Shown in pieces: positions 1,253 to 35,267 of a DNA stretch of 44,392 nt. This DNA comes from Acidobacteriaceae bacterium (GTDB lineage: Bacteria; Acidobacteriota; Terriglobia; Terriglobales; Acidobacteriaceae). A program made the position numbers and the translations under genes. How positions within the stretch are numbered: the stretch's first letter is position 1; the number at the start of each line of letters is the position of its first letter. Under the pieces are notes generated by a model, which saw only the letters and a list, made by a program, of their open reading frames with translations, searched no databases and was not told where the DNA came from. The stretch is taken from NCBI GenBank assembly GCA_003165795.1, contig PMWW01000155.1, forward strand, positions 23,364-67,755, written 5' to 3'.

Positions 1253-2773
1253 TTATTTCAAGAAATCGGCGAGAATGCTGGACGCTTCCGAGGGATCAGA
1301 CTGGAATGGTGCAGACACTGCGTATAGAACAGTATTCTGGGGATGGCCAAAAAGTCGATTGCGGGCCTCGATGGCTCGAAGCTGATAGGGATCGGACGTG
1401 AATTGATCGCCGATAGAATACCAAGTCCATACCAGGCGATGCCGGGACCCTCGAGCAATCGTGTATTCGGCAACCATGAGCGGTCTCCCGGCAATGGTCG
1501 CTGCCTGGGCGCTGCTGCCTAGTAACGTCCATGCTCCCGATCTTCCCACTGCATTAGATGAATTAATCAGCTCGACCCCACGCCGGTCTCCCGAATAGGA
1601 GGCGAAACAAACCGATACTTCGCGCGGTCCTGAAAGGAAGGTCTCTATAGTCCTTGCTCGGATTGAGGTAGGTTCGGGCGCCCACTCCTGGTCCAGATTG
1701 TCGACCGCTATCCAGCCTGGGGGCGCAGCTAACCCATTGGCTGCCATGGGAATCGCCGGAGTGCGCGACCACAGGAATCCAGTCAGTGCCGTCGCCGAAA
1801 CGGCGATTATAACTATCATCGCTAGATTAGCAACCAACCTGACAGGTCGCGCGGAAGGTTCATTCGATGCCGCGCCAGGAAGGGTTGCGGCGGTCACTGG
1901 TTCAGACCACCTGAACGCAACCGTGAGCAGAATCGCGGTCAGCAGAGAAAAGAACACAAAGCCGTAGATTACATGGTCCACCCCGGTTGCGATCGCGTTA
2001 CCGGAAAGATACGCCAGCACAACAATCCCATACGCCCTGACCGCATTTGCGATGATGGGTAACAATGCCGAGAGCAGCAGGAAAGTGATGCGGCGTTTCC
2101 AGCTGCGGTATGCTACCCCCGCGACTAGAACACCAATGACAATCGAAGCGATCAGATAGCGAATGCCGCTGCACGCCTCGGCAACTTGCCAGTTGCCGGA
2201 CGGAGTTGACAATATCAGACCATCTTGCACTGCAGGAATGCCAGAGAGCCGGAGAGCGTTCACCGTAAAGGCGGCTGTCCATTGCTGAAGCAGCGGCACC
2301 AGGCTGTCTCCGACCGGGACCGCAAAGAAAAGAAAAAGTAAGGCGAACCGCAAGACGCGGACCGATGCATTTCCCAGAAATGTCCAGACCAATGCATCCA
2401 GCATGGTGATGAGCGCGATGTGCTGGATTACCTGCACATCCGCCACGTTGCCGGCAACCCACAACCCTGCCGAAAAGAAAAACAATGTCAGACCGAGAAG
2501 CGACGTTGTGGGATGAAGTGTTCTTAGATCGTCCCGGCGGCGCCACACCAGGAGTGCACAGAGGGGGACGATGACGAACCCGTAGGAATACGTGCTACTG
2601 CCATTCCAGATCGTAACCATGGAAGCCATGGTCTGGCGGAATGCAAAGAGCGTGACCATCCCCGCAGTCGCCAAGGCTATCAGCGGCCCGAGCCAGGCTG
2701 TCGTAACCGCCTCGCGGTCATTCAGCTGGGGCTCAACAAGAAGAATCGGAGCCGAAGAACTGGAAACGGACAT
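1253..2773 (-). CDS. xrtA: Exosortase A with C-terminal EpsI domain
   Basis: Membrane cysteine transpeptidase-like enzyme that recognises and cleaves PEP-CTERM proteins. The 506-aa protein has about eight hydrophobic segments in the first 340 residues. The exosortase catalytic signature is complete: Cys201 in EACSGIRYL, Arg246 in NAVRAYG and His267 in DHVIYGF. After a linker and another membrane segment near 315-335, residues of about 345-506 form a soluble domain of the EpsI (DUF3485) type. XrtA proteins of EPS loci often carry this domain as a fusion, while other loci encode EpsI separately. The ATG is preceded by AGGGGAGAG. The gene sits at the end of the EPS cluster, just upstream of a PEP-CTERM substrate. 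Assignment to the A class rests on the EpsI fusion and on the many XrtA-associated neighbours. Confidence 0.93.
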   Translation of the reverse strand: MSVSSSSAPILLVEPQLNDREAVTTAWLGPLIALATAGMVTLFAFRQTMASMVTIWNGSSTYSYGFVIVPLCALLVWRRRDDLRTLHPTTSLLGLTLFFFSAGLWVAGNVADVQVIQHIALITMLDALVWTFLGNASVRVLRFALLFLFFAVPVGDSLVPLLQQWTAAFTVNALRLSGIPAVQDGLILSTPSGNWQVAEACSGIRYLIASIVIGVLVAGVAYRSWKRRITFLLLSALLPIIANAVRAYGIVVLAYLSGNAIATGVDHVIYGFVFFSLLTAILLTVAFRWSEPVTAATLPGAASNEPSARPVRLVANLAMIVIIAVSATALTGFLWSRTPAIPMAANGLAAPPGWIAVDNLDQEWAPEPTSIRARTIETFLSGPREVSVCFASYSGDRRGVELINSSNAVGRSGAWTLLGSSAQAATIAGRPLMVAEYTIARGSRHRLVWTWYSIGDQFTSDPYQLRAIEARNRLFGHPQNTVLYAVSAPFQSDPSEASSILADFLK

Positions 2774-13493: not shown

Positions 13494-14726
13494 TCACTTC
13501 GTCGCCAATATTGTGGGCGACAAATCTGCCGGCCTACTCACTACTTCGCTCATCAGTTCTTCCAGACGGCGCAAACGCGATTCCCAGCTAAGCTGCTTTC
13601 TCACTGCGGGAGCAGACTCGCGGAACTTGCGGCGTAACAAGAAATTAGCGAGCACGAAGTTGACGGTCTCGGCAAATTGTTGGGGATTATCGGCGGCGAA
13701 CAATCCCTCATGCTCCGACAAACCTATTCCCGCAACCGCACGGCTGCTGGTCACCACCGGAGTTCCCACCGCCAAAGATTCGGCGATCTTGTTATGGAAC
13801 CCCTGGGAGATTCGAAACGGAGCGACAGAAATCTCGGCGTGGCGAAAATACTGATAGACGTCAGGGACCGTCCCGGTGACGGTGACTCCCGGAAGCTTAG
13901 CCAGTCGTTGTACTTTGCGATCGGGATTGCGGCCGACGACCACAAAATTCAACTCGGGACGTTGCCGGCGAAGCAGCGGAAAGATGTCGCGTGCGAAGTG
14001 CTCGGCAGCATCGGAATTGGGTCGGTAATTCATGGTGCCGACGAAGACAGCAAACGGTTGTAGCCGGCGAAGGCCGGTGTCGGCTACCTCAGCAATGGCG
14101 GTTGGAACTTCGACCCCGTTCGCCATCACTTCCACCGGAAACTGGTTTCGCGCGGCACCGCAGAGTTCCCGCGCGTCATGCTGGGTGACCGCCAGCGAGA
14201 GGGCGGCTCGAGAACCCAACGTTCGCTCGCAGGCCGCAACGGCGCGGGCTTCACGGGCATAGAGCCAGGAGCGCGGCGGGCGGCAAGAGCCGGCATATTG
14301 CTGCCACTTCGCAGAGTCGGCATCGACAAAGTCCACTACTAAGCGAGCCGGCGACGGCGACGGAACGTACTGACCCATGGAGGAGCAATAGACAAAGATC
14401 AGATCATGGCGGTGCTGCCGCAACGCCTGGCGCACGGCCTCGGCAAAAACCGGCGAATAAAAGAAAGCTGCCGACATTGACCGGTCGCAAAGACCAGCCC
14501 AGGCGGCTCGCAGAAATCTGCCCGGCTGGCGTAAGGTTTCCACGTGAACACTGCGGCAGATTTCCCGGCAAGCCTTCTGGTGTACGGCATCGGCTTGCGA
14601 ATCGGCAAAGCAGAACAGATCGACTTCATGCCGTCCAGCCAGATACTTCAATTCATGGAACGCACGGATTCGCTCTCCTTTGTCAGGAGGGTAGGGCAGC
14701 CGATGAGTAAGGAACAATATCTGCAT
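13494..14726 (-). CDS. GT4-type glycosyltransferase, PEP-CTERM/EpsH1-associated (stp1 type)
   Basis: A 410-aa glycosyltransferase. The opening ILFLTHRLPYPPDKGERIRAFH is the signature of PEP-CTERM/EpsH1-associated sugar transferase family 1 (TIGR03087 type). Further motifs are DFVDADSAKW near residue 125, FVGTMNYRPN near 230 and APFRISQGFHNKIAESLAVG, which carries the GT4 Glu. It stands 31 nt after the FemAB-like gene and 4 nt before the stp2-type gene. The pair stp1/stp2 is a standard component of XrtA-type EPS loci. Donor and linkage cannot be derived. Confidence 0.9.
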   Translation of the reverse strand: MQILFLTHRLPYPPDKGERIRAFHELKYLAGRHEVDLFCFADSQADAVHQKACREICRSVHVETLRQPGRFLRAAWAGLCDRSMSAAFFYSPVFAEAVRQALRQHRHDLIFVYCSSMGQYVPSPSPARLVVDFVDADSAKWQQYAGSCRPPRSWLYAREARAVAACERTLGSRAALSLAVTQHDARELCGAARNQFPVEVMANGVEVPTAIAEVADTGLRRLQPFAVFVGTMNYRPNSDAAEHFARDIFPLLRRQRPELNFVVVGRNPDRKVQRLAKLPGVTVTGTVPDVYQYFRHAEISVAPFRISQGFHNKIAESLAVGTPVVTSSRAVAGIGLSEHEGLFAADNPQQFAETVNFVLANFLLRRKFRESAPAVRKQLSWESRLRRLEELMSEVVSRPADLSPTILATK

Positions 14727-14757: not shown

Positions 14758-15816
14758 CTAAGGGAACCAGCGAACGACTTTGGGACCTAGCCACGTCGTG
14801 GCCCGGAGAGGCATTTGACTCCACAGCCGAGTGGCGATCTCAAACTTAGGGTTGGTAGGAGAAAAGTTGGGTGCCTCTTTCCGCCTTACCAGAAATGTCT
14901 GGTAGTCGAGGGTCTCGATTTGCATGTTCCACGAAGACTTGAACTGGTAAGCACCGGTACCTCGTTTACTCCGGCCAAAGTCAAAGCGACGCAGTCCCTT
15001 GCTGGCCGCATCCTTCATGAGTTCCCAGTAAATGAAGTTATTGGCAGCGAGATGGTTCGCGTCGCCAGAAGCTCCGGCATAGTGAGGAAACAAGGTGTCC
15101 CCGGAGAACAAGGACAGCACTCCGGCGACTGGCCGACCGTGATAATAGGCCAGCTTAAGGTCGATGCGGTCGCTGAATTCTTCGGCCAAGATTTTCAACC
15201 AGCGCTGGGAAAATACCGGTGTCCCAAAGCGGCGCCAGTTGGTGGCAAACAATTGGTAGAACGAAGCTAGTTGCTCTTCTACTCCTGAACGCAGCTCCAG
15301 GCCGGCCTTCTCTCCCTTGCGAATCATGTACCGGGTATCGCGCGGCAACTTCTTCAGGCTGGCTTCAGGGTCGGAGCCCAATTCGCAACTGAATCCCACG
15401 TACAAGGTTTTGGGTATGAATCCCGGATATGGCTTGCATCGCCTATGGCGCAGTTCTAGAAAATCCACGTTCTCGGCCCGCGCAATCTCTTTTGCGCGCT
15501 CGACCAGGGCGTCCCCGGATTCCTCATCCTGGGCGCAGACGCCCCCGTAGTCGGCGAAGGGCGAGGACATCAGGCAGCGACCCACGATCCAGTTCGCCAC
15601 CAGGAACAGCGGCAGGACGCCGGTGATTTCGCCATTACGTTGGGCATAGATAGACCGTGGCTCATAGTCAAACGACTTCTCGATGGCCCTCATCCACGCG
15701 GTGGCATGAAAGGGGGTCGCTCCCGGCTGAGAGTGGAGCCATCGGTCCCACGCCGGGGCAATTCCGGGACAGAACTCCCGCACCGTTACTGCGACCGGCT
15801 CCGTCTGCTCGACCAT
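14758..15816 (-). CDS. FemAB-like transferase, PEP-CTERM system-associated
   Basis: A 352-aa GNAT-fold protein of the FemAB family as found in PEP-CTERM/EPS loci (TIGR03019 type). FemAB relatives transfer aminoacyl or acyl groups. Supporting segments are ATPFHATAWMRAIEKSF (about 30-46), DFLELRHRR, KLPRDTRYMIRKGEKAGL, the GNAT-like KLAYYHGRPVAGVLSLF and FDFGRSKRGTGAYQFKSSW. The start at 15816 was chosen because it follows the stop of the XRE gene by 10 nt. The open frame continues another 55 codons upstream across that gene, which is very unlikely to be coding. The ribosome binding site is weak. Confidence 0.87.
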   Translation of the reverse strand: MVEQTEPVAVTVREFCPGIAPAWDRWLHSQPGATPFHATAWMRAIEKSFDYEPRSIYAQRNGEITGVLPLFLVANWIVGRCLMSSPFADYGGVCAQDEESGDALVERAKEIARAENVDFLELRHRRCKPYPGFIPKTLYVGFSCELGSDPEASLKKLPRDTRYMIRKGEKAGLELRSGVEEQLASFYQLFATNWRRFGTPVFSQRWLKILAEEFSDRIDLKLAYYHGRPVAGVLSLFSGDTLFPHYAGASGDANHLAANNFIYWELMKDAASKGLRRFDFGRSKRGTGAYQFKSSWNMQIETLDYQTFLVRRKEAPNFSPTNPKFEIATRLWSQMPLRATTWLGPKVVRWFP

Positions 15817-15826
15817 GAGCTGCGCT

Positions 15827-16084
15827 TTAGTCGCTATCACTCTTGGCCCCACGCAGATTCGAAAAGAACACCGACTGCGGAGTAGGGATATTGTCGTGTT
15901 GTTCGAACAGCCATCCTTCTTCCACATTGAGGTAGTCGGCGAGCAATTTCCGTTCACCTTCGGAAGGTTCACGGTACCCATTGATGATTTTGCTAAGCTG
16001 GCTTTCGCAAAACTTCAGTTCCCTAGCGATTTGGTTTTGTCGAATGCCGAGTTTGAAGATCTGCAATTTGAGGTTCGGATACAT
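15827..16084 (-). CDS. Small XRE-family helix-turn-helix regulator
   Basis: An 85-aa protein consisting almost only of a Cro/C1-type HTH: KLGIRQNQIARELKF, then CESQLSKIINGYREP, which is the recognition helix region, then EGERKLLADYLNV. It would bind DNA as a dimer. It sits inside the EPS operon, 75 nt after the tyrosine kinase and 10 nt before the FemAB-like gene. It might therefore autoregulate or tune the downstream half. The ATG is preceded by an AAAAAGG-like sequence. Target sites are not known. Confidence 0.82.
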   Translation of the reverse strand: MYPNLKLQIFKLGIRQNQIARELKFCESQLSKIINGYREPSEGERKLLADYLNVEEGWLFEQHDNIPTPQSVFFSNLRGAKSDSD

Positions 16085-21095: not shown

Positions 21096-21860
21096 TTATG
21101 GCACCACGATTACGTCGCCATTCGAAAGCTCAAAATCGGATTTAGGATCGGCACCCTTGATGGCCTTTTTGTAGTCGAAGTGGAGTTTTTCCTGGTGGTC
21201 GCCGACCTTGCGCAGGATGTAAATCTTGTCGGACTTAGCGAAAGCCCCTGGTCCACCGGATTCGGCCAGGATCTGCAGGACGGTCTCGTGTCCAGTCAAG
21301 GAAACCGCTCCGGGATGACCAACTTGGCCGACGAGGTAGACGCGGCGGCTGCGAATGGTACGCACGATCACCGTAACCTGCGGCTCATCCACCACCGGTT
21401 TCAATTTTTCGGTCAGTATGTCCTGCACCTGCTTGGTAGTTAAGCCGACCACATAGACATCGTTGATCACCGGCACCGTGATCATGCCGTCGGGGCGTAC
21501 CACCACCGGCCCAGAAAGGTCGGGCTCCTTCCACACCGAGATCTGCAGATCGTCAGCAATCCCGACAATATAGGACTCATCCGGCTTGCCCGCGGGGGCT
21601 GATTTCGGGGTCATCCCCGCTTTGACCTTGGTGTCAGGGGAGGGTTCCGGTACGGGAGCCGGGGTTGAACTGGCAGACGAAGCGATCTCCGTAGAAGGGG
21701 CCAACGCCGGGGACGTATTCCCGGCAGGGGTTCCGGCTTTCGGAAGCGCCACAGCATTGGCCGGTAAGGCCGGAGCCTGGGCCGAGATCTGGCAGATCGA
21801 AGCGGCTAGAACAGCGATCAAGATCAATGCTCCGGCAGGAGTGCCGAACGGTTTCCTCAT
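21096..21860 (-). CDS. Wza-like polysaccharide export protein, PEP-CTERM-associated
   Basis: A 254-aa periplasmic/outer-membrane export protein. Residues 1-28 form a signal peptide ending SAQ-A, followed by an Ala/Pro/Ser linker to about 90. Then comes the polysaccharide export domain (YIVGIADDLQISVWKEPDLSG, RPDGMITVPVINDVYVVGLT) and an SLBB-type domain (RVYLVGQVGHPGAVSL). No typical lipobox is present, so unlike Wza it may not be lipidated. It matches the XrtA-associated export family (TIGR03027). GGGAGG lies 5 nt before the ATG, and a sigma-54 promoter predicted at 21893-21909 would start transcription about 22 nt upstream of the ATG. Confidence 0.92.
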   Translation of the reverse strand: MRKPFGTPAGALILIAVLAASICQISAQAPALPANAVALPKAGTPAGNTSPALAPSTEIASSASSTPAPVPEPSPDTKVKAGMTPKSAPAGKPDESYIVGIADDLQISVWKEPDLSGPVVVRPDGMITVPVINDVYVVGLTTKQVQDILTEKLKPVVDEPQVTVIVRTIRSRRVYLVGQVGHPGAVSLTGHETVLQILAESGGPGAFAKSDKIYILRKVGDHQEKLHFDYKKAIKGADPKSDFELSNGDVIVVP

Positions 21861-21892: not shown

Positions 21893-21909
21893 GGCAAATA
21901 GGCTGCCAT
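21893..21909 (-). promoter_or_regulatory. Sigma-54 promoter for the wza-like gene
   Basis: On the minus strand the sequence reads ATGGCAGCCTATTTGCC. It has TGGCA at -24 and TTGC at -12 with exactly 10 nt between GG and GC. The expected start is about 21882, only 22 nt before the ATG at 21860. Positions after TGGCA deviate from the best consensus (GC instead of CG). Confidence 0.65.
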
Positions 21910-29858: not shown

Positions 29859-32234
29859 CTATTTTGCCGGCATTTCCGCCAGGATTTTCCTGGCATCGGC
29901 AGCATCGCCAAAATTGGGCATCTTCAGGGCCGCTTCCAGTTCTTTCCGCGCCTCATCGTTGCGTCCCAGCTTGTAATAGGCAGTTCCCAGATGATACAGG
30001 TACGAAGCGTTGGTGGGATCTTTGGCGGCTGAATCTTTGAGATTTTCGACGGCCGCTTCGTAAGAGCCTTTCTTGACGTAAATCCAGCCCAGCGTATCGG
30101 CAATGCCAGGGTCGTTGGGGGCCTTTTCTTTCGCTTCCTCGGCCAGCTTGAGGGCCATGTCGACATTGCCGCCGTGCTCGGCGTACAGCCAGGCTAAATT
30201 ATTCTTGGCGACTACGTTGTCAGGATTCGCATTCAGTGAACTCTCATAGTAAGTCCTGGCTTTGGTGAAATCGCCCTTTCTTTCGGCCATCTGACCCAGG
30301 CGAAACAACGCGTACGAGCGGCTTGAGTCCTGCTGGGCCGCGGCCTTCTCATACGATTGCTGCGCCAAGTCAAATTGTTTATTCAGAAAATAGGTGTCGG
30401 CCAGGCCCAAGGACGCCTGCGTAAGGTTCGGGTTGATGGTCAAGGCCTTGTTGAAGGCGTCCAGCGCGGCCTGAAGGCGTCCCGTTCGCTGCGCCACTCG
30501 GCCCAGAATTTCAAAACCTTCTGCCCAATTGGGGGTCTTGTTCAACCGTGCCTTTATTGCTTCGATCCCCTGATCGGCCTGTTTTTGGGCGACATAACTG
30601 GCACCCAATACATTGAGCGCAACCACCGACTCTGGTGTCATGTCCAGGGAATCGCCAGCCAGTTTTGCGGCTTGAGCAAACTGTCTTTGCGCCAGCTTGA
30701 CGGATGCCTGCGCCTGAAGAACGGCCCCCTTTTCCTTTGCTGTGGTGGCCATACCAAGGCTGGCGTTCAAGTCCGTCTCCGCCGCCTGAAAGTCACCCTT
30801 CGCCATGTAGGCCTGGGCCAGAAGCAATCGCGTGCCCAGGGCCCTAGGTTTTGCCGCTACTTCCTTGGTCAGGTCTTGGATCACTTGGTCCGCATGGCCC
30901 TGGCTCAACTGGATGGCGGCCAAAGTGTCGGTCGCTGCCGGATAGTCCGGGTTGATCTTCAGCACGTCCTGCAGCGCGGTTTGTGCTTCGTCAAGTTTCC
31001 CCACGGCTATGTAGGCACGAGCCAGACTAAAGATCGTCTCGGCCGCGGCGGGATTACCTTTACGACTCTTCTGCAGCTCGGTGATGGCGTCGGCCGGCTT
31101 TCCGCCTTCGAGCAGCACCCTCCCTTTCAAGGCGAGAGCTTGCCAATCTTTAGGATTGTTCTTCAGCAGACGCTCGATGGCGTCGCCGGCTTCTGGATAA
31201 CGGCCATCGACGATATCGGCGGCCGCCAGTCCGCGCCAACTCTGCCAATCCTTCTTGTTCGTCTCCACCAGGCGCTTATATTCGGCTTCCGCATCTTGGG
31301 GACGGTTCGACATCATGTAAAACTCAGCCAGAATGTCGCGATATTCGGCCTGGTCCTTGCCCTTTTGCTGAACTTGCCGGTAGAGCGGCTCGGCCTCAGC
31401 CATTCTTTGATGCCGCATGTAGAAGTTCGCCAGCAACATGGCGAAGGGAATGTCGCCATTGTTCTGCTGCTGGGCTTGTTTCAAAACGGCCTCGGCGTTT
31501 TGCAGGTCGCCCTTTAATTCGTAGATGTTGCTGAGCGCCCCGAGCGCGGCCGTGGACTTCGGGTCCAACTGCCACGCCCGGCGCAGGGTCGCTTCCGCTT
31601 CCTCGGCTTTGTTGTCGTGCAGTTGCAGATAAGCGAGGTCCGACAAAGCTCGGGTGTTGTTGGGCTCGGCGGCCAGCACTTGGTCGACCAGGCTGCGGGC
31701 CTGCTTGTAGTCTTGCAGACCAAAATCGCTCTCCGCCAGCAATAAGGTCCCGACCTTGTCGTCGGGCCAGTTACTGAGAATCAGCTGCGCCTGTCCTTTC
31801 GCTTCGGCAAAGTTGCCCGCCCGGGCCAGCATCTCACCAATCATGATCTGCGCCTGACGATGCTTGGGATCAGCTTTGACCGTAGCGACAAATTCCTGAA
31901 AGGCGATCTGGGGGGTGCCGCGCTGCAGTTCGATATTGGCCAGCTCGAAGCGGGCCTTGGCCAGCTTGGGATTGAGCTGAATGGCCGATCGCAACTCGAT
32001 GATGGCCGCATCCGTGTCGTTCTCTTTCAGCAACTTTTCGGCCCGCGCGTAGTGCTTTTCTGCCTTCACTTTGGGGTCGCGGGTGCAGCCGGTTAGCGCC
32101 GGCAGCAGCAGGCAGGACAGCAGCAGGGCCGCCATCTGAAAGTAGTTTGGCAAATTGCGACGATTCCAGCCCCGGCGCGAGAAATTGTTTATCAGTTGTC
32201 TCATGACCGACCCCTTTGCTAAAGACGCATTCAT
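29859..32234 (-). CDS. prsT: PEP-CTERM system TPR-repeat lipoprotein PrsT
   Basis: A 791-aa exported protein matching PrsT (TIGR02917 type), a large TPR protein conserved with exosortase A. A lipoprotein signal (MAALLLSCLLLPALTGC, lipobox Cys50) is followed by about twenty TPR units filling the rest (for example AEKLLKENDTDAAIIELRSAIQLNP and NLAWLYAEHGGNVDMALKLAEEA). It probably scaffolds the envelope-spanning assembly machinery. The ATG at 32234 overlaps the epsB stop (ATGA), implying coupling. An in-frame ATG at 32204 with AAGGGG upstream would shorten the N-terminus by 10 residues and is nearly as plausible. Confidence 0.92.
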   Translation of the reverse strand: MNASLAKGSVMRQLINNFSRRGWNRRNLPNYFQMAALLLSCLLLPALTGCTRDPKVKAEKHYARAEKLLKENDTDAAIIELRSAIQLNPKLAKARFELANIELQRGTPQIAFQEFVATVKADPKHRQAQIMIGEMLARAGNFAEAKGQAQLILSNWPDDKVGTLLLAESDFGLQDYKQARSLVDQVLAAEPNNTRALSDLAYLQLHDNKAEEAEATLRRAWQLDPKSTAALGALSNIYELKGDLQNAEAVLKQAQQQNNGDIPFAMLLANFYMRHQRMAEAEPLYRQVQQKGKDQAEYRDILAEFYMMSNRPQDAEAEYKRLVETNKKDWQSWRGLAAADIVDGRYPEAGDAIERLLKNNPKDWQALALKGRVLLEGGKPADAITELQKSRKGNPAAAETIFSLARAYIAVGKLDEAQTALQDVLKINPDYPAATDTLAAIQLSQGHADQVIQDLTKEVAAKPRALGTRLLLAQAYMAKGDFQAAETDLNASLGMATTAKEKGAVLQAQASVKLAQRQFAQAAKLAGDSLDMTPESVVALNVLGASYVAQKQADQGIEAIKARLNKTPNWAEGFEILGRVAQRTGRLQAALDAFNKALTINPNLTQASLGLADTYFLNKQFDLAQQSYEKAAAQQDSSRSYALFRLGQMAERKGDFTKARTYYESSLNANPDNVVAKNNLAWLYAEHGGNVDMALKLAEEAKEKAPNDPGIADTLGWIYVKKGSYEAAVENLKDSAAKDPTNASYLYHLGTAYYKLGRNDEARKELEAALKMPNFGDAADARKILAEMPAK

Positions 32235-33817
32235 TTGGCGCCGCGTCCCGATAAAAGAACTTTGGCGGTTTCAAAGATTATGGCGAGATCTAACGGCATC
32301 GACAGGTGCTTGATGTAGAACAGGTCGTGCTCCAGCTTTATCTTGGTTTGTTCAACCGTCGCGCCATAACCGTACTTAACTTGTGCCCAGCCCGTGATCC
32401 CCGGACGCAGCGAGTGACGCTGCCCGTAATAGGGGATTTGCTCCTCCAGCATCTCCGCCAGGGAAGGCTGTTCCGGGCGCGGACCGACCAGACTCATGTC
32501 GCCGCGCAGGACGCTAATAAGTTGCGGCAGCTCGTCCAGCCGGAACTTGCGAATGAATCGTCCCACCCGGGTAATACGCGGGTCACTGTCAGAAGTCCAC
32601 GAGGCGGCTTTGGGCACCGGCTCGTTTCGCATGGAACGAAATTTCAAGATTTCGAAGTGCCGCCCGTTGAGCCCGATTCGCCCCTGCCGGAACAGCACGG
32701 GAGCGCCGCTCTCCAGGAATACGGCAAGCGCGATCACCGCCATTAAGGGCAGTGCCAGGACCAGACCAATGGTGGAGACGACAATGTCGGTCAGGCGCTT
32801 GGCGGCCAGGACCAGGCGCGATTGGCGAAATCCGTCAGCCAAGATCAACCAACTCGGGGAAAGGTGGTCCAACAGGATTCGTCCCGTGGTGCGCTCGTAC
32901 ATGTCATGGGCCTCTTCAATCTTCATGCCCACAAACTTCAGGCGGAGCAACTGCTTGATCGGCGTGCCGCCGCGCCGCTCGGACAAGGAAAGCACGACCC
33001 GATCCACCCGTTCCGCAAGAGCGCAGCGCTCCACATCCTTGGGGGTTCCGATTACCGAAGGAAAAATCACTTCGCGGCTTTCCGTGGCATGGTCGGCAAC
33101 CGCCGTGGCCGCACCGCCGAGCAGCCCTTCCGCCCCGGCAGCTTCCATCATGAGCGCGCCGGACCCACGGCTCCGCAGCGCCGGAGATGGGCTATATCGC
33201 AAGGAGTAGTGGAGCGGAAACGGCGAGACCCGAGCGCCGTACTCCCGTTCCCCGATGGCAGCGCTACCCGTGCCCAGGCTGTCGCTCTCCCGCAGCAGGC
33301 CAACGATGTCGATGTTCAGCTCCGGCCGGCGCAGAATCTCCTCCGCTAGATAGCATCCGGCCGGACCGTCACCCACGATGAGGATGCGCTCATTGCGCCG
33401 GAGAAACGGCGCGCTGGCATCCACCAGCAGGCGCCAGCCAGACACCGTAGCAATGATGAGAGGTGTGGCAACTGCGGCAATGCCACGCCCCAGACTCAAG
33501 TCCGGGTAGCAGTAATAGAGGAGTGCCAGAACCAGGCAGGCCGAACCCAGTGCCTGCAGCAAACGTACGAACAGCACCGACCGCCGGCTCACGATCTGGA
33601 GATCATAGAGATCGTAGTAATACAGCGCCAGTTCGCACACCACAATCACGATGCCGTAACGCAGCAGAACTCCGGGCTGCCTTATCTGCTGCCGGAAGGC
33701 CTCGATGTCCATCAGTCGCAAGGCGGTGGCGAACAGCAGCCCGCAGGCGATCAAAGCGCCTTCCGATGCAATCAGCACCAGAGTCTTGCCGGGAATTCTT
33801 TGCCCACCGATTTTCAT
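32231..33817 (-). CDS. epsB: Initiating sugar-phosphate transferase EpsB-type (polyprenyl glycosylphosphotransferase), PEP-CTERM-associated
   Basis: A 528-aa enzyme that transfers a sugar-1-phosphate to undecaprenyl phosphate to start EPS repeat-unit synthesis. Four or so N-terminal membrane helices lie in 13-115, a CoA-binding/Rossmann-like middle part includes RILIVGDGPAGCYLAEEI, and one helix precedes the bacterial sugar transferase domain. That domain carries FEILKFRSM, FRLDELPQL, RGDMSLVGPRPE and GITGWAQV, and ends FYIKHLSMPLDLAIIFETAKVLL. It fits TIGR03013. The ATG at 33817 fits the family start. It is only 9 nt past the CCA of the tRNA-like gene, and those 9 nt (AAAGTTCAC) hold no Shine-Dalgarno sequence. 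The open frame upstream to 33934 begins inside the sigma-54 promoter and cannot be used. Confidence 0.92.
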   Translation of the reverse strand: MKIGGQRIPGKTLVLIASEGALIACGLLFATALRLMDIEAFRQQIRQPGVLLRYGIVIVVCELALYYYDLYDLQIVSRRSVLFVRLLQALGSACLVLALLYYCYPDLSLGRGIAAVATPLIIATVSGWRLLVDASAPFLRRNERILIVGDGPAGCYLAEEILRRPELNIDIVGLLRESDSLGTGSAAIGEREYGARVSPFPLHYSLRYSPSPALRSRGSGALMMEAAGAEGLLGGAATAVADHATESREVIFPSVIGTPKDVERCALAERVDRVVLSLSERRGGTPIKQLLRLKFVGMKIEEAHDMYERTTGRILLDHLSPSWLILADGFRQSRLVLAAKRLTDIVVSTIGLVLALPLMAVIALAVFLESGAPVLFRQGRIGLNGRHFEILKFRSMRNEPVPKAASWTSDSDPRITRVGRFIRKFRLDELPQLISVLRGDMSLVGPRPEQPSLAEMLEEQIPYYGQRHSLRPGITGWAQVKYGYGATVEQTKIKLEHDLFYIKHLSMPLDLAIIFETAKVLLSGRGAK

Positions 33818-33826
33818 GTGAACTTT

Positions 33827-33901
33827 TGGTAGGCGGAGCCGGAATTGAACCTGCGACCTCCCCGATGTAATCGGGGCGCTCTGCAACTGAGCTATCCGCC
33901 T
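33827..33901 (-). tRNA. tRNA-Val(UAC)-like gene, structurally atypical
   Basis: A 75-nt cloverleaf on the minus strand. The acceptor stem is perfect (AGGCGGA/TCCGCCT), the discriminator is A and the CCA is encoded. The D-stem is GCTC/GAGC, the anticodon stem CCCCG/CGGGG, the loop ATTACAT (anticodon UAC, valine), and the T-loop TTCAATT. Deviations from a normal tRNA are a D-loop AGTTGCA that lacks the GG pair (one of G18/G19 missing), an A-G mismatch in the middle of the T-stem (GCAGG/CCGGC), and A32 facing U38. It may be a functional minor tRNA, a decaying copy or a tRNA mimic in the epsB leader. A sigma-54 promoter would start about 6 nt upstream, and epsB begins 9 nt downstream. Confidence 0.65.
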
Positions 33902-33916
33902 ATGCAGAAGTTGCAA

Positions 33917-33934
33917 TCGCAAGTTACGTGCCAA
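33917..33934 (-). promoter_or_regulatory. Sigma-54 promoter for the tRNA-like/epsB/prsT unit
   Basis: On the minus strand the sequence is TTGGCACGTAACTTGCGA. The -24 box TTGGCACG is perfect and the -12 box is TTGC, with exactly 10 nt between GG and GC. The predicted start is near 33907, about 6 nt before the 5' end of the tRNA-like gene. Confidence 0.78.
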
Positions 33935-34169: not shown

Positions 34170-34186
34170 CTGGCATGTCGCTTGCT
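34170..34186 (+). promoter_or_regulatory. Sigma-54 promoter for the acyltransferase/ACP/ligase operon
   Basis: CTGGCATGTCGCTTGCT fits -24/-12 (TGGCAtG, N4, TTGCT) with the required 10 nt between GG and GC. The predicted start is near 34197, giving a leader of about 50 nt before ATG 34248. Confidence 0.7.
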
Positions 34187-34247: not shown

Positions 34248-35267
34248 ATGGCCGTGCACCTCCGCGAAGCAGATCTCATGCAAGACGAACCTGCGCTGAT
34301 CGCGTTGGCCCGTACCTATTTGGGAGCGACGGATGCCCACCGGTTTCGTTGGCTCTATCACGACAATCCGTTTGGCCAGGCTCGAGCCTGGCTGGCCTTT
34401 GACGGGCAGACCGAAGGTCCCATTGGGATGGCGGCACTGTTCCCCCGGCGAGGCTATGTGGGCGGGGCCGAAGTCCTGGGCTGCGTACTGGGAGACTTTT
34501 GTGTTAGCGAAGGCTATCGCAGCCTCGGACCGGCCGTCCAACTCCAGCGGGCTTGCCTGTCTTTGATCGAGTTGGGCCAGTTCGCCTTCTGCTACGACTT
34601 TCCCAGCACCGCGATGGTCAGCATCTACCGCTATTTGGGCCTGCAGCCAACCCACACCTCGGTGCGGATGGCTAAGCTCCTGCGAACGGAAAAAACGATA
34701 AGGGAAATGGTGCCGGCGCGGGCGCTTTCCCGGGTTATCTCGAAAGCGGCAGACTTTGTGCTGGCACTGAAGGACAGGCAGGCCGCGGACCCCGAGGGCA
34801 TGGAATACCGGCTGGACGAACAACCCTGTTCCGCCCAATACGCCCGGTTGGCGCAGCAGGTGGGATCGTCGCTAGGCAGCTGCACCGTGCGCAGCCCGGA
34901 ATACTTGAACTGGCGGTATCGGCAGCATCCCACGCAGCACTACGAATTCCTTGCCGGGTATCGCGGTGGCGAACTGCAGACCTATTGTGTCTTCACCCTT
35001 TCCGAAGGCCGGGCCCAAATCGTTGACCTGTTTGGCAGTCCGGATGAGAAAAAAATTACCGGTCTGCTCAAGCGCCTGGTGCGATTGCTGCGCAGCCGCG
35101 GAGCGTCGGCAATAAGCATATCGGTGCTGGCGGGCGATGTACGCACTCGCTTACTGCGCACCCTGGGATTTCGGGGCCGCGAGTCGGTACCGGTCATCGG
35201 TTGCAGCGGCAAATTATCTAACTTCGGGCCACGGCTTTTGTTAATGCATGGCGACCGGGAAAGCTGA
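34248..35267 (+). CDS. GNAT-like acyltransferase family protein (copy 1)
   Basis: A 339-aa soluble protein with the look of a double GNAT-fold acyltransferase. It is clearly paralogous to the protein at 35564-36604; shared landmarks are WLYxDNPxGxAxxW (about 35-48), GDFxVxxxxRSLGPAVxLQRA (about 83-103), FCYDxP and LNWRxRQxP, then a DLFG strand. I cannot name a substrate. It is the first gene of an operon with an acyl carrier protein, an acyl-CoA ligase and a decarboxylase, so acyl or aminoacyl transfer from the carrier protein to an EPS sugar is a reasonable inference. Confidence 0.7.
   Translation: MAVHLREADLMQDEPALIALARTYLGATDAHRFRWLYHDNPFGQARAWLAFDGQTEGPIGMAALFPRRGYVGGAEVLGCVLGDFCVSEGYRSLGPAVQLQRACLSLIELGQFAFCYDFPSTAMVSIYRYLGLQPTHTSVRMAKLLRTEKTIREMVPARALSRVISKAADFVLALKDRQAADPEGMEYRLDEQPCSAQYARLAQQVGSSLGSCTVRSPEYLNWRYRQHPTQHYEFLAGYRGGELQTYCVFTLSEGRAQIVDLFGSPDEKKITGLLKRLVRLLRSRGASAISISVLAGDVRTRLLRTLGFRGRESVPVIGCSGKLSNFGPRLLLMHGDRES

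Follow-up and report, generated by a model that had tools for sequence, protein, structure and literature searches.

A tRNA-Val(UAC)-like gene in an acidobacterial XrtA locus belongs to a tRNA family linked to femAB

Why should a gene resembling a transfer RNA (tRNA) stand between a sigma-54 promoter motif and the start codon of an exopolysaccharide glycosyltransferase? The question is raised by a stretch of 44,392 nucleotides (nt) from the Acidobacteriaceae bacterium GCA_003165795.1 (contig PMWW01000155.1, positions 23,364-67,755 of the forward strand; genome G000), referred to here at its full length as the window. According to protein-family profile matches, its gene set is that of an XrtA/PEP-CTERM (exosortase A) exopolysaccharide locus. 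An initial annotation had proposed for the element in front of epsB either a leader RNA that sets the 5' end of the mRNA, a tRNA tied to exopolysaccharide induction, or a tRNA mimic or decaying tRNA. The best reading is now a tRNA dedicated to the XrtA system and tied to femAB and to the XrtA locus, not to epsB, in place of an epsB leader or a decaying tRNA. The features that raise the question are the following.

33827..33901, minus strand: XrtA-locus tRNA-Val(UAC)-like gene with encoded CCA (ARAGORN, anticodon tac; RF00005; 92.6 bits with the covariance model R1 described below, of which it is itself a seed)
33919..33934, minus strand: sigma-54 -24/-12 motif TTGGCACG-N4-TTGC (spacer TAAC), GG-N10-GC with consensus flanks and zero mismatches
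32231..33817, minus strand: epsB, XrtA/PEP-CTERM glycosyltransferase downstream of the tRNA (TIGR03013, 407.2 bits against a cut-off of 393.35, protein read from the ATG at 33817)

ARAGORN detected a single tRNA in the whole window, a tRNA-Val (tac) at 33827-33901 of the minus strand, and the RF00005 covariance match at the same place reached 57.6 bits, the gathering score being 29. The gene that had been placed there is confirmed, and the score, respectable for a tRNA, is in itself no sign of decay. The D-loop and T-stem defects reported for it are real. Positions 51 and 63 form an A51-G63 mismatch, so that a regular T-stem of 5 base pairs is not present, and the D-loop consists of the 7 nt AGTTGCA; the anticodon loop has 7 nt and U33. 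The epsB start was also correctly assigned, with 9 nt between the CCA and the ATG at 33817, no Shine-Dalgarno sequence seen and a TIGR03013 match from that ATG. An ordinary tRNA-Val(UAC), whose presence had been left to be checked, is encoded elsewhere in the same genome (G000:C157, 71.2 bits), so the window copy is not the sole isoacceptor. The two genes share 55 identical positions in a global alignment (75 and 77 bases), and the window tRNA is therefore an extra, divergent copy.

The relatives of this tRNA were searched with BLASTN in 399 genomes of the class. Besides the window, the three best hits (genomes G012, G128 and G050) have the same acceptor stem as the window tRNA, and the next hits read were ordinary tRNAs, except the one in G115. 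The covariance model R1 was built with these five sequences as seeds. Applied to the 399 genomes, it gave nine matches of at least 85.9 bits, every one with XrtA-system genes nearby (on the short contig of G414, femAB is the only one visible). Lower matches in G073 (83.5 bits), G403 (81.0 bits), G081, G254 and G244 start with GGGC, look like ordinary tRNAs and have no XrtA genes nearby, the contigs of G073 and G081 being 3.5 kb long. In 237 genomes of the family of G128, 14 members were recovered, 7 of them new. The search of 297 genomes across the phylum gave 13 matches above the cut used: judged by sequence and gene neighbours, the members were the window, G050 and G628, which belongs to another class, and the remaining ten were called tRNA-Val by ARAGORN, none of them with a match to the XrtA proteins of the window nearby. 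The family comprises 17 members, the window tRNA and 16 relatives (5 seeds and 12 found by the model); R1 scored 12 to 20 candidates per genome with stricter filters, so that members may be missed and the counts are lower bounds.

Absence of the tRNA-epsB arrangement from relatives had been named as a refutation, and in the narrow sense it is absent. ARAGORN found no tRNA at 29 epsB-like loci, one per relative genome (38 genomes had a match), a scan in which many loci are not true XrtA epsB and some members escape the program; a further 58 loci examined with ARAGORN did not show the arrangement either. What recurs is a tRNA family tied to femAB and to the XrtA locus. The genes of the window needed here are the following.

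14758..15981, minus strand: femAB (TIGR03019, 315.2 bits against a cut-off of 260.35), 18 kb away from the window tRNA and proposed user of the charged tRNA
13494..14726, minus strand: stp1 glycosyltransferase (TIGR03087), whose homologue comes next after the tRNA in nine relatives
1253..2773, minus strand: xrtA exosortase (TIGR03109), whose homologue comes next after the tRNA in four relatives

Outside the family of the window (f1), the tRNA lies downstream of femAB (TIGR03019) and on the same strand in 15 of 15 members, at 8-228 nt from the femAB stop codon and within 86 nt in 14 of them. R1 was built without 12 of these 15, and one of the 15, G628, comes from another class. In the two f1 members, the window and G012, the tRNA is inside the XrtA locus and femAB is found in the same locus or contig. 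At the level of genomes, TIGR03019 (E <= 1e-40) was detected in nine of nine tRNA-bearing genomes and in 46 of 390 others (Fisher p ~1e-8, uncorrected for kinship). As a control, 84 loci around other tRNAs, some of them overlapping, contained no femAB and only one prsT-like and one epsB-like match; two further control loci were left out as members found twice. A phylogenetic tree of FemAB (59 rows, midpoint root) includes all 16 tRNA-bearing rows within one clade of 35 sequences (support 96/94); G628, found later, is absent from this tree.

The side of the tRNA opposite to femAB is less constant, and it is here that a cis-acting leader has to be considered. Under this explanation, a tRNA-like fold at the 5' end of an XrtA mRNA would set the 5' end of the next gene or regulate it, by tRNA processing, by sensing of charging or by blocking of ribosomes. 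It draws on the short distance between the CCA and the epsB ATG in the window and on comparable distances elsewhere, the stp1 ATG being 5-6 nt after the CCA in four members. In four others (G485, G050, G442 and G455), no ATG, GTG or TTG occurs between the tRNA and the conserved N-terminus of stp1, and the stp1 frame continues without a stop across the entire tRNA; an in-frame ATG precedes the tRNA in each of the four, and G485 and G442 also have a GTG within the T-arm. In these genomes stp1 is either translated through the tRNA, tRNA and mRNA being alternative fates of the transcript, or started in another way. However, the downstream gene varies: nine relatives have a stp1 homologue there and four have xrtA, G214 has a different glycosyltransferase-like gene, G414 a gene not identified, G012 a gene 120 nt away that was judged lipoprotein-like by eye, and the window has epsB, whereas femAB is upstream in all 15 members outside f1. 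Furthermore, conservation extends to the acceptor stem, A73 and CCA, for which a cis leader has no obvious use. An Rfam scan of the window at gathering scores gave RF00005 as sole match and no T-box or other known leader family. The suggested role as a leader fixing the 5' end of the epsB mRNA thus finds no support as the main function, and we consider a cis-acting role of this kind unlikely.

The anatomy of the tRNA also distinguishes the dedicated tRNA that we favour from other origins. All acceptor-stem pairs are kept in the 16 aligned members, which start with AGGCGG and end with ACCA (A73 and the encoded CCA), and the -AC anticodon end, A73, encoded CCA and acceptor stem are common to all 17. 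In the 16 aligned sequences the anticodon loop ends with A-C, then A (15 members) or G (one member), then one more base. The length of this loop is 7 nt in seven of them, 8 nt in five, 9 nt in three and 10 nt in one; with the 7-nt loop of G628, loops of 8-10 nt are present in 9 of 17 members. A 7-nt loop with U33 is found in four (window, G267, G538 and G628), U33 being absent from four of the eight with 7-nt loops. The T-stem contains an extra base in 13 of the 16 aligned members and, judged by eye, in G628, and the window, G525 and G414 have a 51-63 mismatch, which in G414 occurs together with the extra base. The T-stem is thus irregular in 15 of the 16 aligned members, or in 16 of 17 if G628 is counted by eye. 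The sole regular T-stem, in G012, goes with the 10-nt anticodon loop, so that at least one of the two departures, an oversized anticodon loop or an irregular T-stem, is present in every member. Base pairing is kept in 97.6% of cells, a percentage inflated by the fitting of the alignment to the model, and double-change cells number 15 against 4.5 in shuffles. The Rfam tRNA gathering score was reached by 11 of 17 members and missed by 6 with fast filters; ARAGORN missed some members and called others tRNA-Phe. Of 16 member genomes searched for an ordinary tRNA-Val(UAC), 12 showed one; G115, G312 and G525 gave other tRNAs only, G424 gave a partial match, and G628 was outside the 16. The ordinary tRNA-Val(UAC) genes of G535, G267 and G538, three genomes of one genus, display an unusual T-arm.

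If the gene were simply one more tRNA-Val of the ordinary kind, induced along with the locus to assist its translation, this would account for the conserved valine anticodon end and for the 11 members that pass the Rfam score. Against it stand the 8-10-nt anticodon loops of nine members, the lack of U33 in half of the 7-nt loops and the nearly general irregularity of the T-stem, and an ordinary tRNA-Val(UAC) is already there in the 12 genomes; we regard this explanation, too, as improbable. A decaying, functionless copy hitch-hiking in the locus would fit the T-stem and D-loop defects of the window tRNA, which had been taken to favour a mimic or a decaying tRNA. This is very unlikely: the stems, the anticodon end, A73 and CCA are conserved in the 16 aligned members with compensatory changes, the same kind of T-stem extra base is seen by eye in the 17th member, from another class, and the adjacency to femAB is repeated. 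Finally, the remnant of an attachment site of an integrated island can hardly be at issue, despite the frequency of tRNA genes as integration sites (noted in the abstract of PMC3399842) and a window epsB with no relative above 44% identity in eight congeners, as the last 16 bases of the tRNA have no second copy in the window (up to 3 mismatches) and the tRNA of relatives is close behind femAB with other XrtA genes around.

The window FemAB matches the Pfam FemAB family with 53.9 bits (cut-off 24); the FemAB proteins of two relatives scored 27.9, above the cut-off, and 16.8, below it. FemAB-family proteins occur in XrtA/PEP-CTERM loci. A profile of 17 FemAB sequences, the window protein included, was compared with PDB and recovered FemX of Staphylococcus aureus (6snr, 2.6e-16), an "aminoacyl-tRNA-dependent peptide synthase" (9wqy, 5.5e-11) and FemX of W. 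viridescens (~1e-6). Residue 305 of FemX aligns with a lysine that is invariant across the 17 FemAB sequences (K348 in the window FemAB), and Lys305 is given as the catalytic lysine of FemX in the part of PMC12945691 that treats it. By sequence, the XrtA-locus FemAB is a homologue of the FemX-type aminoacyl-tRNA-dependent transferases with the catalytic lysine kept. On the side of the tRNA, G2-C71 is present in all 16 aligned members and likewise in the ordinary tRNA-Val genes examined; passages of PMC4052509 state that FemX needs G2-C71 in its tRNA.

The sigma-54 promoter that had been annotated ahead of the window tRNA is a perfect -24/-12 match at 33934-33919. Taking its last C as -12, transcription is predicted to start at about 33907, 6 nt ahead of the tRNA. 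It is the only zero-mismatch match of the window. Matches with up to 3 mismatches number 50 where 54.5 are expected by chance, which leaves weight to the perfect match and its position alone. In G012, a motif with 2 mismatches lies 15 nt before the related tRNA and predicts a start 4 nt ahead of it; such sites are not rare in this 18-kb stretch (3 against 2.65 expected), and the weight of the G012 motif is therefore that of its position alone. When the upstream 70 bases of 116 distinct tRNAs were scanned, the window tRNA had the best sigma-54 match. Transcription of the tRNA from its own sigma-54 promoter is thus predicted in the window and in G012 from these motifs, and the proposed tie of the tRNA to exopolysaccharide induction is supported by both predicted starts. 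The genome of the window encodes RpoN; its best match to PrsR scored 443.4 bits against a curated cut-off of 502.6, and the cognate activator was not identified. Directly 3' of the G012 tRNA is a T run (G012:C26:6640-6648), as for the end of a single-gene transcript. In G424, the member with the longest gap between femAB and the tRNA (228 nt), a sigma-54-like site with 2 mismatches is located 41-56 nt before the tRNA and may be due to chance.

From these elements we regard it as fairly probable that the window tRNA belongs to a Val-type family which is dedicated to XrtA loci, takes largely no part in decoding and feeds FemAB. The tRNA would be transcribed along with the locus; in the window and G012 a sigma-54 promoter of its own would drive it, and elsewhere it would probably be part of the femAB operon. 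After tRNA maturation, the RNA would probably receive valine from valyl-tRNA synthetase (ValRS). Charging by ValRS is proposed because A35-C36, A73 and the acceptor 5' strand GGCGG are kept as in ordinary tRNA-Val(UAC), the identity elements of ValRS being A35, C36 and A73. The irregular T-stem, the anticodon loop or both would keep the tRNA largely off EF-Tu and the ribosome, and the charged tRNA would serve as donor for the FemAB of the locus, acting as a FemX-type aminoacyl transferase. FemAB may then add the amino acid to an acceptor of the XrtA cell envelope, such as a polysaccharide precursor, a lipid-linked sugar or a PEP-CTERM protein. To our knowledge, little of the chemistry of XrtA/PEP-CTERM loci has been worked out.

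Several observations weigh against this reading. First, the linkage is not general. In the 399 genomes of the class, TIGR03019 gave 57 matches in 55 genomes. The tRNA is adjacent to only 7 of 52 femAB matches scanned (all 47 over the cut-off and 5 of the 10 under it), all seven in the main family (f6), and 16 of the 23 femAB-bearing genomes of f6 show no such tRNA; in G331 (f6) and G196 the contig stops at femAB and the downstream side is out of view. In 24 stretches (447 kb) from G012 and 12 femAB-bearing genomes lacking an adjacent copy, R1 recovered as member only the known G012 copy, its other matches being called tRNA-Arg (one) and tRNA-Pro (two) by ARAGORN or being weak (20.6 and 18.1 bits). 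Beyond the phylum, TIGR03019 matched twice in nine genomes, several of them titled Acidobacteria or Bryobacteraceae, and 71 of the class of one of them, and at both loci neither ARAGORN nor R1 found a tRNA. The tRNA is not obligatory for FemAB. On the FemAB tree the tRNA label needs 6 changes (shuffled mean 14.4), which indicates that the tRNA was lost, gained or moved repeatedly and, in turn, that FemAB can do without it, perhaps using ordinary aminoacyl-tRNAs. In the window and G012, the tRNA is about 18-20 kb from femAB. Second, the three f6 seeds of R1 were aligned with their gene neighbours already known, and the G012 promoter motif is tied at 2 mismatches with two others among the 116 upstream regions, those of a tRNA-Ala (36 nt upstream) and of the family member G424 (41 nt upstream). 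Third, the 7-nt anticodon loop with U33 means that the window copy could still decode, and the stp1 frame running through the tRNA in four genomes fits poorly with the cutting of all transcripts into tRNA. Fourth, among eight RNAs folded, the minimum-energy fold was not a cloverleaf for the window tRNA, the window leader, G414 and G012. Ordinary tRNAs, too, often miss the cloverleaf in energy folding. Lastly, the single-sequence structure prediction of the window FemAB had a mean pLDDT of 32.6.

The other features of the window that touch on this locus are the following.

29859..32234, minus strand: prsT, XrtA/PEP-CTERM TPR protein (TIGR02917)
34248..35267, plus strand: GNAT-domain protein divergent from the tRNA (Pfam Acetyltransf_1, 23.0 bits against a cut-off of 20.7; no NCBIfam match)
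34171..34185, plus strand: sigma-54-like site with 1 mismatch, in front of the divergent GNAT gene
21096-21860: XrtA polysaccharide export gene
21894..21908, minus strand: sigma-54-like site with 1 mismatch, in front of the export gene

Further XrtA-locus products are an acyl-CoA ligase, a decarboxylase, stp2-like and stp3-like proteins, amidotransferases, an O-ligase, and chain-length, ATPase, kinase and export proteins, part of the matches being below their curated cut-offs. The divergent GNAT-domain protein, with a sigma-54-like site of its own, could use acyl or aminoacyl donors too. No close relative of epsB was detected in the eight congeners searched, the identity of at most 44% being like that of the second epsB-like gene of the same genome; the XrtA locus may therefore have been acquired, or lost in the others. 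A tRNA-Leu-like gene of this genome (G000:C86:3037-3152) contains, by eye, a long hairpin in the anticodon region, which is either an assembly error or a real insertion.

The closest precedent for a dedicated tRNA feeding FemAB is the set of non-proteinogenic tRNA-Gly of S. aureus, substrates of FemX/A/B (passages of PMC4052509 and PMC8007984). According to the part of PMC4052509 that compares them, the cell-wall tRNA-Gly isoacceptors differ at 49-65, 51-63 and 18-19. Both cases have in common, as far as these passages go, extra isoacceptors beside normal ones, departures at T-stem 51-63 and at 18-19 and a transferase of the FemABX family. The window tRNA is likewise a second isoacceptor changed at positions known to weaken EF-Tu binding (T-stem 51-63 and D-loop). 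Unlike the S. aureus set, the tRNA is here of valine type and occurs in other bacteria, where its gene is physically linked to femAB in XrtA loci; many members have a larger anticodon loop and an additional base in the T-stem, and two genomes carry sigma-54-type motifs. We know of no such linkage between tRNA and transferase genes in S. aureus, where linkage is not a defining feature. A second comparison is tRNA-Other, a pseudo-tRNA of Bacillus cereus that is likewise a tRNA-like RNA outside translation with a cell-envelope phenotype; in the passages of PMC3399842 that describe it, it differs in being poorly charged and in flanking an island, with no mention of a transferase operon. Among the FemABX/GNAT-fold aminoacyl-tRNA-dependent transferases (FemX, VlmA, DhpH-C and PacB; PMC12945691, in the part on these enzymes), the XrtA FemAB takes its place as a sequence homologue with the catalytic lysine aligned. 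The main text of this 2026 review does not contain "tRNA gene", "dedicated" or "isoacceptor" and so describes no private tRNA gene for such enzymes in these terms. For Proteobacteria, sigma-54 motifs have been described ahead of PEP-CTERM genes (passages of PMC1569441), and the window locus belongs to the same PEP-CTERM/EpsH (XrtA) system with PrsK/PrsR sigma-54 control. The main text of PMC1569441 contains neither "tRNA" nor "FemAB", so that a sigma-54 motif before a tRNA is outside the system described there. In one open-access library, no paper on PEP-CTERM, FemAB and tRNA together was found, and none on XrtA-linked tRNAs among the papers listed, judged by title or start of abstract. As far as found, the tRNA is thus known in kind, as a non-proteinogenic tRNA for Fem enzymes, and new in the type of amino acid, the system and the gene linkage.

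A bolder version of the idea, which we put forward as doubtful, is that XrtA loci encode their own amino-acid donor, a Val-type tRNA outside translation that would be co-transcribed with its transferase and would form a private pool for the aminoacylation of a secreted polysaccharide or sorted protein. The tRNA stretch would, in some genomes, double as the start of the next glycosyltransferase frame, so that a transcript becomes tRNA or mRNA and the supply of donor would be coupled to glycan synthesis. More simply, a tRNA encoded beside femAB indicates that FemAB probably uses an aminoacyl-tRNA, and suggests valine as the amino acid. Such genes may be overlooked or wrongly named by annotation pipelines, since 6 of the 17 members fall under the Rfam gathering score with fast filters. 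If the proposed function is true, tRNAs reserved for non-ribosomal work would extend from the peptidoglycan of S. aureus to the exopolysaccharide or protein-sorting systems of unrelated bacteria.

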